Positions 33,225 to 39,645 of a stretch of DNA of 40,828 bases are shown piece by piece. Numbering within the stretch: position 1 is the stretch's first letter; each line of letters starts with the position of its first letter. Position numbers and translations under genes: made by a program. The stretch is taken from assembly GCA_018971945.1 (NCBI GenBank), contig JAGWZH010000018.1:1-40828 (forward strand), written 5' to 3'. Source of the DNA: Alphaproteobacteria bacterium (lineage in GTDB: Bacteria > Pseudomonadota > Alphaproteobacteria > Caulobacterales > Aquidulcibacteraceae). The notes under the pieces were generated by a model. The model was given only the letters and a program-made list of their open reading frames with translations, was not told the origin of the DNA and made no database searches.

Positions 33225-33914
33225 TCATGACGCTACGGCAGGACGCATGGCTTCAGGTTTGGGGATGGCGTCATAACGCAGAGCCAAAGCCTCGCCGAGC
33301 TTGGCTTTCAAAGAACCGCGCTTGGGCTTCGCCGCCTGGATGAGCCGCGGCGCGTGGTGCTCCTGCGTCGGCGTCCAAAGCACCGGCGCGCCCGCGGCAT
33401 GGGCGAAAGCGGCCACCTCTGCGGTGCCCCCAGGACCCGCTGGCGGTTTTCCGCTCCAGACCGCGATCACAATATCCGCCATCGCGGCGAGTTCGTGGGC
33501 CAACGCCGCATAGGGAGCGGCTGAACCGCCGCCGGCGGCGGCCACCTGCGCAGGGGTCATCGACCAGACCTTGTCGGCCCGCTTGAGATAGCCCTGAAAA
33601 GCCTCAATCGAGGCTTGGTCGGCGAAGTCCTGCTCATACCGGTCGATCGGAAACGGCAACGGCGTCCATAATCGCCATCCCAAGGCCAAAGCCGCATCGG
33701 CGGCGTATCGGTCCGCACCCTCCGCCACGCCCGAGGCCAAGACCAGCGGCCGCGCGCCCACGGCCTCCTCGACCGCCTCACCGATCTGCACGACCGCGCG
33801 CCCAACGTCCCGGGCGATCCGTGGGCGCTCGCCCTCCGGCAATTGGTTCAACCGGTGGCCGGTCACGACGACGATGACGGGTTTAGCAGCCACACAACTC
33901 TCCCTTGCCTTCAT
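33225..33914 (-). CDS. SLOG-superfamily nucleotide-binding-fold protein
   Basis: The 229-residue protein has the pattern of SLOG (SMF/DprA-LOG) Rossmann-like proteins: VIVVVTGHRLNQLP at the first strand, VLASGVAEGADRYAADAAL (the SGxAxGAD loop, 61-71) and WTPLPFPIDRYEQDF, then DIVIAVWSGKPPAGPGGTAE. SLOG domains bind or process nucleotide-derived ligands, and LOG-type members release cytokinin bases from nucleotides. This subtype is uncharacterised. No membrane segment or SLATT partner is present. Its ATG overlaps the stop of the FolC-like ligase gene (ATGA), so it is tied to that ligase in expression. Confidence 0.7.
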   Translation of the reverse strand: MKARESCVAAKPVIVVVTGHRLNQLPEGERPRIARDVGRAVVQIGEAVEEAVGARPLVLASGVAEGADRYAADAALALGWRLWTPLPFPIDRYEQDFADQASIEAFQGYLKRADKVWSMTPAQVAAAGGGSAAPYAALAHELAAMADIVIAVWSGKPPAGPGGTAEVAAFAHAAGAPVLWTPTQEHHAPRLIQAAKPKRGSLKAKLGEALALRYDAIPKPEAMRPAVAS

Positions 33915-35125
33915 CTCGCATCCAAAAACCCCAAGGCGGCGGGATCAAGGCCCATGGCCAAAGCCTTCGCCTCGGCCGCTACATACAATGAACCAGCGAC
34001 AAGGATCGGCTGACCGCCAGCGCGCAAGGCGCTCCAAGCCTCCCCAACGCCAGCATAAGCACGGATCGCCGCCGCCGGAGCGGCTCGGCGCGCGAGGGTT
34101 TCGATCTCCTCGGCAGGTCGGCCGCTGAAGCGGCTCCTGACGCAGGCGATCGTGGAAAAATGCGGGGCCAGCGCGTCCAGAATTTCGGCGGCGTTTTTCT
34201 GTGGCGAGACCCCGATCATAAGACCGCCCCCGCCCCCCGCCGCTTTTTGGAAACCCTCGAGAGCATGGCGCGCCGCCTCAGGGGTGTGGCCAATATCAAT
34301 GATTGTGAGGGGGGCGCGGTCCACGGTTTCCAACCGGCCAGGCAGGCGTGTTCCAGCGATAGCGGCGCAGGCCTCCGGGCGTTCCCCAATCAAGCGACGG
34401 GTCAGCGCCCATGCGAGGCTCGCGTCGATCCTCAGAAACGCCGCCTCAAGACCCATGAAGGGCGCCTGCTCCGACGCTGTGGGGGCGACCAGGGTCTTGT
34501 CAGTCAGGGCGGCGAAGGCGGCGAGATCGGCCCAGACCGGCGTCGCAGAGGGGCCGACCACCACCTCCGCCCCGGACGCGAAGCCGTCGAGCTTATCCTG
34601 GCCGATGGCGGTGAGCGTGTCGCCCAGCAAGTCGGTGTGCTCAAGATCCAACGAGGTCAGCGCCCCTCTTCGGGCGCGGACGAGGCGCGTGGGATCAAAG
34701 CGTCCGCCAATGCCCGCCTCCCAAACGATCCAGGCGCATTCAGCCCTCTGAAAGGCCAGAGCGGCCATCAGAAAGAGGTGTTCAAACGCCCCCATGGACT
34801 GGTCAGGCACGCCAGCGCCCGCCCTCGCCTCGGCGACCTCGCCGCTCAAGGCGTTCATCCTCTCATCGGCGATTGACGCGCCGTCGATCGCGATGCGCTC
34901 CCCTATCCGCAACAGATGCGGCGAGGTGAAAAGACCGGTTCGACCTCCTGTCGCCAAGGCGGCGGCGGTCATCGCGGCGGTTGTGCCCTTGCCGTTTGAC
35001 CCAACAATGAGAACAGAGCGCGGCGCCAGCGCCGCCAAATCCACACCCAAGGCGTCCGCCGTCGCGCGCACCCGAGCAAAGCAGGGCCCTTTGCCGAACT
35101 TCGAAGCCGGAAGGCCGCTCAGCAT
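33911..35125 (-). CDS. FolC/Mur-type amide ligase
   Basis: The 404-residue protein belongs to the Mur ligase superfamily in its FolC-like branch. It has a P-loop GSNGKGTT (42-49), LFTSPHLLRIGERI, WEAGIGGRFDPTR, LTSLDLEHTDLLG, then LPGRLETV and DIGHTPEAA in the C-terminal domain. Such ligases form amide bonds using ATP and an acyl phosphate. FolC (folylpolyglutamate/dihydrofolate synthase) is the default name, but the coupling to a cyanophycin-synthetase-like ATP-grasp gene suggests another product. ATG 35125 overlaps the ATP-grasp stop by seven bases (ATGCTGA); an upstream ATG at 35155 is also open. A second, housekeeping folC elsewhere would support a separate role. Confidence 0.85.
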   Translation of the reverse strand: MLSGLPASKFGKGPCFARVRATADALGVDLAALAPRSVLIVGSNGKGTTAAMTAAALATGGRTGLFTSPHLLRIGERIAIDGASIADERMNALSGEVAEARAGAGVPDQSMGAFEHLFLMAALAFQRAECAWIVWEAGIGGRFDPTRLVRARRGALTSLDLEHTDLLGDTLTAIGQDKLDGFASGAEVVVGPSATPVWADLAAFAALTDKTLVAPTASEQAPFMGLEAAFLRIDASLAWALTRRLIGERPEACAAIAGTRLPGRLETVDRAPLTIIDIGHTPEAARHALEGFQKAAGGGGGLMIGVSPQKNAAEILDALAPHFSTIACVRSRFSGRPAEEIETLARRAAPAAAIRAYAGVGEAWSALRAGGQPILVAGSLYVAAEAKALAMGLDPAALGFLDAR

Positions 35126-36063
35126 CCCAGGCCCGCCTTGAGATTGGCGGTCCATATCCGATCAATCAGGTCCAGCCGCGCGTGGGCCTCAAGGGTCTGG
35201 AGCGCCGGGCTCGCATTGGCTTCAATCACCATGAGCGCGCTCGCATCCCCGCAAGCGGAGATATCGAAGACGTCCACCCCCGCAAAAGAGAGACCAAGCG
35301 CACGGGCGGCTTGCACCCCGAGCCTCGCCAAAGCCTCAGGCGGGGGCGTCAGCACTTCTTTGGCGTCGCCGCCTGCGCTGCGGTTTTGCGGGCCGAACAC
35401 CATAAGGCGGACGCCTTGGGGCGGCGCTTCTCGCGCGCTCCAAATCCGTCCGGCCTCATCAACAGCCTCCGCCAAAGACGGCGGTGCAAGAGCAGCGGTG
35501 GTCGGGCCGATTCGCCTCCGGGCCGCCGCCACAAGTTCGGCCAGGACCGCGCGGCCATCGCCCGTCACAGTGAGCGGGGTCTTCTCATAACTGCAAAGAG
35601 CCACGCCCTGCAGAACGATGACCCGATGCTCGACCCCGCGGATCAAGGGCTGCACAAGAATGGCGTCGTGCCGCGCCCCCACCCGACTTAGATAATCAGC
35701 AAAGCCGGCTGCGTCCGCGATCGGTTCGGCGAAATCGCCCTTCGACCCCGAAACAGGTTTGCAGAAGACAGGATAGACAAACTCCAGGGCGGCCTCGAGC
35801 GCATCCGCGGGCTCCCGCCCAGGCTTTCGGAAGACGGCGTGGCGGTCGTTGGCGAAAAAAAGCCGCCCTGGCACGTGAGGGACGCCCGAAGCCCCGAACG
35901 CCTCCGCTGCGAACCCCTTGTCACGGGCAAGGCTCATCGCGGCGGCGGAATTCAAGAAATACGGGCTGGCCGACCCTGTGCCGAAAATGCGCTCACCACC
36001 CGGCGATTCCGCGACCGCAAACAGGTAGCCGTCTTCGTCCAAACACCGAAAACTGAGCCCCAA
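35119..36063 (-). CDS. ATP-grasp ligase, cyanophycin-synthetase-like
   Basis: The reading has an ATP-grasp core resembling that of cyanophycin synthetase: FVYPVFCKPVSGSKGDFAEP (ATP-binding lysine and glycine loop), ILVQPLIRGVEHRVIVLQG, LTVTGDGRAVLAELVAAARR, and GVDVFDIS with MVIEANASPALQT holding the metal-binding Glu and Asn. It should ligate an amino or carboxylic acid with ATP. The start is uncertain. Similar-looking codons extend back to the tRNA-His end at 36129, but no ATG, GTG or TTG lies between there and TTG 36063. The true start could be a rare ATT/ATC codon or this TTG. It is the first gene of a tightly packed minus-strand run. Confidence 0.75.
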   Translation of the reverse strand: MGLSFRCLDEDGYLFAVAESPGGERIFGTGSASPYFLNSAAAMSLARDKGFAAEAFGASGVPHVPGRLFFANDRHAVFRKPGREPADALEAALEFVYPVFCKPVSGSKGDFAEPIADAAGFADYLSRVGARHDAILVQPLIRGVEHRVIVLQGVALCSYEKTPLTVTGDGRAVLAELVAAARRRIGPTTAALAPPSLAEAVDEAGRIWSAREAPPQGVRLMVFGPQNRSAGGDAKEVLTPPPEALARLGVQAARALGLSFAGVDVFDISACGDASALMVIEANASPALQTLEAHARLDLIDRIWTANLKAGLGC

Positions 36064-36128
36064 GGCGTCCGCGGCCCGCGCGGCGAACCGCGCATGGGCG
36101 TTGATCGGGCGCCAAGATAGAGAAGAAA

Positions 36129-36205
36129 TGGTACCGCCTCCAGGGCTCGAACCAGGGACCTCTGGATCCACAATCCAGCGCTCTAACCAACTGAGCTAAG
36201 GCGGC
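36129..36205 (-). tRNA. tRNA-His (GTG anticodon)
   Basis: The 77-base cloverleaf reads from GCCGCCTTAGCTCAG to an encoded CCA. The anticodon stem CTGGA/TCCAG encloses loop TTGTGGA with anticodon GTG, and the T arm has GGTTCGAGCC. The acceptor stem pairs GCCGCCT with AGGCGGT, with a terminal G-U pair. The base before G1 is C, so no G-1 is encoded, and the discriminator is A73. Both traits match the deviant tRNA-His reported for many alphaproteobacteria. Confidence 0.95.
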
Positions 36206-38718: not shown

Positions 38719-39645
38719 ATGGCGACCGCCGCCGACCGCAACGCCGTCTCCTTCGGAACGAAGGTCTGTCGCCTTGGCCTCGCGGCCTTCGCTCTGTCGC
38801 TCCTGCTGACGAACCCCGTTAGCGCCCAGAATTTTGGCCCCGGCCCGGCCCTCGAGTTGTTTGAGGGCCCCCGTTACACTGGTCGGAGCGTGGTCTTTAC
38901 CGCCGATGACCACAATCTCATGAATCAACGCTTCAACGACGCGGCCATGAGCGCACGCCTGATCGGAGGGGACGCTTGGGAGGTGTGCGTTGACGCGGAG
39001 TATCGCGGCGGCTGCGTTCGGCTTGACCGGGACGAACCCGATTTGGGCCGCATCGGCATAAGCCGCGCGATCAGCTCGGTGCGCCTTGCAGGATGGCGCG
39101 ACGCTCCCGGGTGGGAAGCTCCGCCATTCGGCCGCCATCCCAGCCTCATCTTGTTCAGCCACACTCATCTTCATGGACAGCGGTTTGAACTGACCGCCCC
39201 CACGCCCAATTTCAGCCCGCTGGGATTCAATGATCAGGCCCAATCCCTGGTCGCCCGAGGGCGGTGGCTTGTGTGCGTGGACGCAAACTATGCTGGCTGG
39301 TGTGAAGAGGTTGAAGACGAGGTCTGGGACTTGAACGCGCTGGGCCTCTCGCGGCGGATCAGCTCGGCGCGTCCCTTAGAGGTCGGGTGGCGGCCAAGCC
39401 CCCGGCCGCCCTATGGCGGGGGTCTGGGACAAAGCCTGCGCGGCCGGTCGAGCGCGTTCTATCCCGCCCCCTTGTTTGATGGACGCCCAGCCCCTGCTTG
39501 CCTGAGCGGTCCTGTAACCAACGCCTGCGCCCAGCGCGCCGCAGACGCTTTCTGTCGCAGCGAAGGCTATGGGGGCGCGCGCTATTTCATAACGGATGGG
39601 CGTGGGCGCAACGCAGCTCTTCTGGATGTGCTCTGCGTCCAATAG
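38719..39645 (+). CDS. Exported beta/gamma-crystallin family protein
   Basis: The 308-residue protein has a signal peptide (cleavage near NPVSA/QN, residue 36) and two Greek-key beta/gamma-crystallin-like domains. The first is LELFEGPRYTGRSVVF to ISSVRL (about 44-122); the second is LILFSHTHLHGQRFEL to ISSARPL (about 141-214). Each holds the Cys-containing EVCVDAEYRGGC or LVCVDANYAGWC repeat. A Pro/Gly linker leads to a Cys-rich tail (CLSGPVTNACAQRAADAFC) that may form disulphides. Microbial crystallins often bind calcium, but the canonical N/D-N/D-x-x-S/T-S site is not evident here. TAGGAG precedes ATG 38719. The function is unknown. Confidence 0.8.
   Translation: MATAADRNAVSFGTKVCRLGLAAFALSLLLTNPVSAQNFGPGPALELFEGPRYTGRSVVFTADDHNLMNQRFNDAAMSARLIGGDAWEVCVDAEYRGGCVRLDRDEPDLGRIGISRAISSVRLAGWRDAPGWEAPPFGRHPSLILFSHTHLHGQRFELTAPTPNFSPLGFNDQAQSLVARGRWLVCVDANYAGWCEEVEDEVWDLNALGLSRRISSARPLEVGWRPSPRPPYGGGLGQSLRGRSSAFYPAPLFDGRPAPACLSGPVTNACAQRAADAFCRSEGYGGARYFITDGRGRNAALLDVLCVQ

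Follow-up and report, generated by a model that had tools for sequence, protein, structure and literature searches.

An overlapping pair of FolC-like and ATP-grasp ligase genes conserved among Alphaproteobacteria

Do two overlapping ligase genes in an Aquidulcibacteraceae genome represent a cyanophycin synthetase split into two chains, as an earlier note on the sequence proposed, or a ligase system of another kind? The window, by which we mean the whole 40,828-nucleotide stretch of DNA analyzed, carries both open reading frames intact and adjacent on the minus strand. The first encodes an ATP-grasp ligase of the GshF/CphA/RimK type (35119..36129, with a putative start codon), about 330-337 amino acids long, and the second a FolC-like ligase of the Mur superfamily (33911..35125; 404 amino acids from ATG 35125). 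The GDGRAVLAEL and IEANASPAL motifs on which the earlier proposal was based are both found in the ATP-grasp translation, and so is the seven-base overlap, in which the FolC-like start (ATG 35125) and the end of the ATP-grasp stop codon (35119) enclose ATGCTGA on the minus strand (35119..35125). An alternative FolC-like start at ATG 35155 would give a 37-base overlap, and in relatives the FolC-like start is mostly at -4, in an ATGA-type arrangement. The seven-base overlap suggests that the two genes are translationally coupled.

Relatives in genome contigs were found by an alignment-based scan, as a single-sequence scan gave no match. Among 37 same-family genomes, both genes occur in the same 14 and neither occurs in the other 23; one gene without the other was seen in none of the 37. 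The pair is adjacent in all 13 further genomes of the family in which either gene is present, and comparison of neighborhoods across Alphaproteobacteria, as the earlier note had suggested, extended this adjacency to Hyphomonadaceae metagenome-assembled genomes, Bradyrhizobium, Rhodopseudomonas, and three more distant alphaproteobacterial genomes (G100, G182, and G285). Because 12 aligned relatives of the pair share 41-54% identity over the full length and the genes adjoin in every same-family carrier genome, the pairing far exceeds what chance would give. Across 29 loci, the distances of one partner correlate with those of the other at r = 0.95, a value that common vertical inheritance largely explains (partial r 0.43-0.45). 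No adjoining FolC-like gene was seen for four distant ATP-grasp homologues (G064, G126, at a contig end, G165, and G305), so that the ATP-grasp enzyme can perhaps function by itself or beside a different partner. The G126 genome is estimated to be complete and has the ATP-grasp gene; there, the FolC-like profile gave a weak Mur-type match and no clear FolC. Outside Alphaproteobacteria, most matches in the phylum sample had, to go by the length of their frames, the size of CphA (about 860-900 amino acids) or of N-acetylglutaminylglutamine (NAGGN) synthetase (about 590-650 amino acids). There was no sign of a plasmid origin, as tblastn at E ≤ 1e-15 gave no match in 72,556 plasmids. The pair is thus a real, conserved two-ligase module, of which we found no description in the open-licence literature searched.

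The family membership of the Mur-type partner bears directly on the cyanophycin synthetase proposal. Its NCBIfam score for the TIGR01499 folC subfamily was 201.2 bits, above the cutoff of 162.65, and no CphA or CapB family match was obtained in NCBIfam. The family profile matched solved FolC with an E value of 7.9e-62 and CphA with 6.9e-8, the latter over the C-terminal part only. In structure searches with the AlphaFold model (pLDDT 86.9), the closest solved structure was E. coli FolC (1w78; Z 39.4 over 371 residues, 2.6 Å), and CphA1 followed at Z 26.2. The PRK10846 model (cutoff 360 bits) does not discriminate here, since the housekeeping FolC of the same genome, at 155.8 bits, also falls below the cutoff, as does the window protein at 124.2. 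The Mur-type partner does not correspond to the Mur domain of cyanophycin synthetase; it is paralogous to FolC, the folate enzyme. For the Mur half of CphA, by contrast, a relationship to MurE and MurF has been described (PMC11915815), and the pair is therefore not CphA cut in two.

A housekeeping folC beside accD, which the earlier note had thought might lie elsewhere in the genome, was found at C122, where it adjoins accD, trpA, trpB, and trxA and scores 304.8 bits. The FolC-like gene of the window is neither syntenic with accD nor the sole folC of the genome. The earlier note had been prepared to give up its reading if this gene were the only folC and its adjacency unconserved; that case does not apply, because a separate folC adjoins accD and the pair is conserved in relatives. 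Its broader claim, that two dedicated ligases act together outside housekeeping folate synthesis, is borne out to the extent that the housekeeping folC is separate and the pair conserved. In a FastTree phylogeny, 32 pair FolCs and 25 housekeeping FolCs split into two sets with a bipartition support of 1.000, and the window copy sits on a long branch.

The Mur-type catalytic positions (E. coli numbering: the Gly56-Gly61 P-loop, Glu146, His173, Lys188, and Asp302) are kept in 30 of 30 pair members. In the window, all on the minus strand, the P-loop is GSNGKG (34985..35002), and Lys178 (34592..34594) is equivalent to E. coli Lys188, which we take to be the carbamylated lysine. Positions that are near-invariant in housekeeping FolC, being kept in nearly all of 24 such proteins, are altered in nearly all of the 30: Thr122 to Gly, Thr128 to Phe, Ala155 to Pro or Val, Asn157 to Arg or Lys, Asp172 to Glu, and AHN to GHT. 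Two of these changes fall in the omega-loop GAFE motif (34781..34792), where the Thr/Ser of FolC is Gly in 28 of 30 pair members, and in the DIGHTP motif (34280..34297), which corresponds to DxAHNP in FolC with Asn replaced by Thr. Thr122 and Asp154-Asn157 presumably line the pterin pocket of FolC, and we take Ser150 of Mycobacterium tuberculosis FolC as the equivalent of E. coli Thr122. This serine is among the positions changed in folC of drug-resistant isolates (PMC8765232); work cited in that article, its reference 33, is said to call such folC changes binding-pocket alterations. The changed residues in the pair proteins argue for an acceptor other than ordinary dihydropteroate or tetrahydrofolate.

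The ATP-grasp partner belongs to the CphA/GshF/RimK branch of its superfamily. Its best NCBIfam scores, all far below the respective cutoffs, were to cyanophycin synthetase models over the ATP-grasp part only (62.5 bits, against a cutoff of 850 for TIGR02068) and to the N-acetylglutaminylglutamine synthetase model (58.3 bits); the score for the rimK_fam model TIGR00768 was 47.4 bits against a cutoff of 143.4. The Pfam RimK domain scored above its own cutoff (25.1 versus 21), and the MptN model gave a weak match (E 8.6e-7). Domain searches of the kind the earlier note had recommended thus place the FolC-like protein above its subfamily cutoff and the ATP-grasp protein below those for CphA and rimK_fam. 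By family profile, the best solved relative was CphA1 (E 5.5e-36), with GshAB at 1.6e-32; by structure (AlphaFold model, pLDDT 87.6), LysX (Z 21.2), CphA1 (about 21), ArgX (19.9), GshF, and RimK (19.2) were near-tied at Z 19-21. The ATP-grasp fold and the ATP and Mg ligands are present, and K115, R160, E294, and N296 are conserved; the IEANASP motif (35206..35226, minus strand) contains the Mg/ATP-binding Glu and Asn.

The large loop of CphA1 recognizes the incoming amino acid. Its Asn394 has an invariant equivalent (39 of 39) in the NRSAGG motif (35368..35385, minus strand), as do CphA1 Lys261 and Arg309 at their positions. The CphA1 residue set mapped onto the 39 ATP-grasp members was taken from PMC9427784. 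The Arg323 position is Lys in 35 of 39 and the Ser396 position is Ser in 25 of 39. Equivalents of Glu215 and His267 occur in none of the 39, and that of Arg458 occurs in 8; the window protein has Ser, Lys, and Gln at these three sites. The description of this enzyme as CphA-like accordingly stands for its branch and not for the three CphA1-specific residues, whose replacement, together with the FolC-like partner, led us to reject a split CphA. In L081-L084, the ATP-grasp proteins of genus g10, most of the large-loop region has been naturally lost.

We next consider the genes around the pair. The order in Hyphomonadaceae is M48 peptidase, tRNA-His, ATP-grasp, FolC-like, patatin, a SLOG- or RyR-type protein, FAD oxidase, and acyl-CoA dehydrogenase. 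In relatives without the pair, tRNA-His is followed directly by the patatin or FAD oxidase gene. Since pairless relatives keep the downstream genes right behind tRNA-His, the pair is a self-contained unit of gain and loss at this tRNA gene, with no obligatory partner among the downstream genes. A functional link to the patatin, SLOG/RyR, FAD oxidase (DAO), and acyl-CoA dehydrogenase genes is not supported, on these grounds and also because the pair in Nitrobacteraceae, including Bradyrhizobium, lacks all four beside it. The window lacks the patatin-like gene that most relatives have, and a small SLOG/Rossmann-like protein with no Pfam match is encoded at 33225-33914 (minus strand); in L076, L077, and L078, the downstream slot holds a SLOG/Rossmann-like protein or one with a weak RyR domain, as if interchangeable. 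Farther along the window, 38719-39645 (plus strand) encodes a secreted-looking protein with repeats that, judged by eye from the sequence, resemble a beta/gamma-crystallin-type domain; a relative of this protein lies near the pair locus in a few of the related genomes. At the contig end (40244-40826), a truncated transposase-like frame beside a ParB-like one, both likewise judged by eye, possibly marks an insertion or an assembly edge.

FolC/Mur and ATP-grasp ligases both couple a carboxylic acid to an amine at the expense of ATP, passing through an acyl phosphate on the way to the amide. We consider it probable that the two enzymes form a dedicated amide-ligase module that places an amino-acid conjugate, probably of glutamyl type, on a carboxylate acceptor. 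The FolC duplicate, having lost the housekeeping signature residues, would convert the carboxylate of a different acceptor to an acyl phosphate and then link it to an amino acid; glutamate or a similar residue seems most likely because of the FolC descent. The translationally coupled ATP-grasp enzyme would then use the same chemistry to add a second amide bond to the same molecule, a shared substrate and an order of steps that we infer from the strict co-occurrence and the overlap. As the pair is accompanied by no further biosynthetic gene, the acceptor would come from primary metabolism and would be turned into a short conjugate of amino-acid or oligoglutamyl type. It is conceivable, at somewhat below even chances, that a neofunctionalized FolC and an always-paired GshF/CphA-like ATP-grasp enzyme make an undescribed alphaproteobacterial natural product or cofactor form, in which a pterin or other carboxylate bears a mixed, differently linked amino-acid tail.

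A folate- or pterin-related acceptor is the leading single candidate, although we regard it as possible rather than probable. In this special case of the proposed module, the FolC-like enzyme would make or extend the glutamyl tail of folate in an altered manner, and the RimK/GshF-like ATP-grasp enzyme would attach a residue through another linkage, in the way that MptN acts on tetrahydromethanopterin. Such tail editing is consistent with the FolC descent of the Mur-type partner by family score, profile, and structure, with the weak MptN match of the ATP-grasp enzyme, and with two genomic contexts: in G182, the pair lies between the housekeeping folC (downstream of accD) and trxA, and in G064, a related ATP-grasp gene overlaps thyA, with folA close by. 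These contexts are a lead and suggestive only. They are two of several, the accD-folC-trxA position could be chance, and the G064 gene has no adjacent FolC-like gene. The replacement of the Thr122, Ala155, and Asn157 equivalents in nearly all members also speaks against tail editing.

A two-protein amide polymerase resembling cyanophycin synthetase and making a storage or capsule-like polymer appears unlikely. In its favor, CphA likewise joins an ATP-grasp to a Mur-type ligase and works without further biosynthetic genes, CphA1 ranks first by profile among solved relatives of the ATP-grasp enzyme (tied with LysX and ArgX by structure), and CapB, a polymerase, has been placed nearer to folylpolyglutamate synthase (FPGS) than other Mur ligases are (PMC11915815). 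Against this, the Glu215 and His267 equivalents are missing in 39 of 39 members and that of Arg458 in 31 of 39, an N domain is absent, the Mur half is FolC-like, the large-loop region is mostly gone in one clade (L081-L084), and no conserved product hydrolase was recognized among the genes next to the pair.

It is also quite unlikely that the FolC-like gene encodes a redundant enzyme of folate synthesis and adjoins an unrelated neighbor for historical reasons. Its folC subfamily score and FolC structure would fit a spare copy, but a housekeeping folC is present in all 14 pair-carrying same-family genomes, the signature residues are consistently different, and the two genes co-occur all-or-none with a conserved overlap.

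The start of the ATP-grasp gene requires separate consideration. The earlier note placed it at TTG 36063, which is too short, since the conserved N-terminal helix NAHARFAARAADALG lies upstream in the same frame and the frame stays open to and into the gene for tRNA-His(GTG) (36129..36205, minus strand), where it reaches GTG 36171. No ATG, GTG, or TTG occurs between the end of tRNA-His and the conserved N-terminus in the window, and the same holds for L089. As the best start candidate, we propose ATT 36129-36127, whose A is also the last base of the CCA end of tRNA-His; GGAGG in the acceptor stem (36137..36141, minus strand), 7 nucleotides before it, is a candidate Shine-Dalgarno sequence. In the window, L072-L082, L089, L090, L092, and L099, the ATP-grasp frame begins at the tRNA-His 3' end, with ATT/ATC or TTG there in many of these loci. 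Several have an in-frame ATT or ATC that uses the A of CCA, most of them with the acceptor-stem GGAGG 7 nucleotides upstream, and in four relatives TTG stands exactly at CCA+1. A TT after CCA may be frequent in any case, so the ATT match by itself is weak support; better evidence for the start is the agreement in frame across spacers of many lengths. Initiation at GTG 36171, inside the tRNA, is an alternative that we do not prefer. In L082, two additional in-frame copies of a 3' part of tRNA-His lie ahead of the ATP-grasp gene.

The lack of a conventional start codon and the long branch of the FolC-like copy could mean that the window copy is decaying, its ATP-grasp start lost and the gene no longer translated, which we judge very unlikely given a frame and examined catalytic residues that are intact over 327 codons, the same arrangement in at least one other locus (L089), and the TTG at the tRNA end in the four relatives.

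Because the standard subfamily model scores genes of this type as folC, a second, non-housekeeping ligase could be going unnoticed in Bradyrhizobium, Rhodopseudomonas, and Hyphomonadaceae. An unusual folate as the product of the pair would matter for one-carbon metabolism; with a separate conjugate as the product, an unknown metabolite would arise from just two enzymes and could be reconstituted in vitro.

Compared with known systems, the FolC-like protein shares with FolC the whole fold, the P-loop, the metal and carbamylated-lysine positions, and the FE of the omega-loop, and differs from it at Thr122, Ala155, Asn157, Asp172, and AHNP (GHTP here), in lying beside an ATP-grasp gene at every locus seen, and in being additional to the housekeeping folC. 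CapB/PgsB, the poly-gamma-glutamate synthetase, is also a Mur-type amide ligase and, as cited above, is reported nearer to FPGS than MurC-F, whereas the FolC-like protein has no CapB match and CapC/CapA-type neighbors were not noticed among the called genes. RimK, LysX, ArgX, and MptN have in common with the ATP-grasp partner the ligation of an amino acid to a carboxylate, and their structures tie with CphA1; the pair enzyme scores under the RimK family cutoff and has a different partner gene. The ATP-grasp domain of GshF (GshAB) and N-acetylglutaminylglutamine synthetase belong to the same subgroup, and GshF likewise lacks CphA1 His267 and Glu215 (PMC9427784), whereas the pair enzyme is a stand-alone chain with no GshA or GNAT domain and a FolC-like partner. 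CphA is one chain (N domain, ATP-grasp, and MurE-like), whereas the pair consists of two chains with no N domain and a FolC-like Mur half, and CphA1 Glu215, His267, and Arg458 are not kept in the window protein; what the two have in common is the ATP-grasp branch, Arg309 and the large-loop Asn394, and the combination of one ATP-grasp with one Mur-type ligase.
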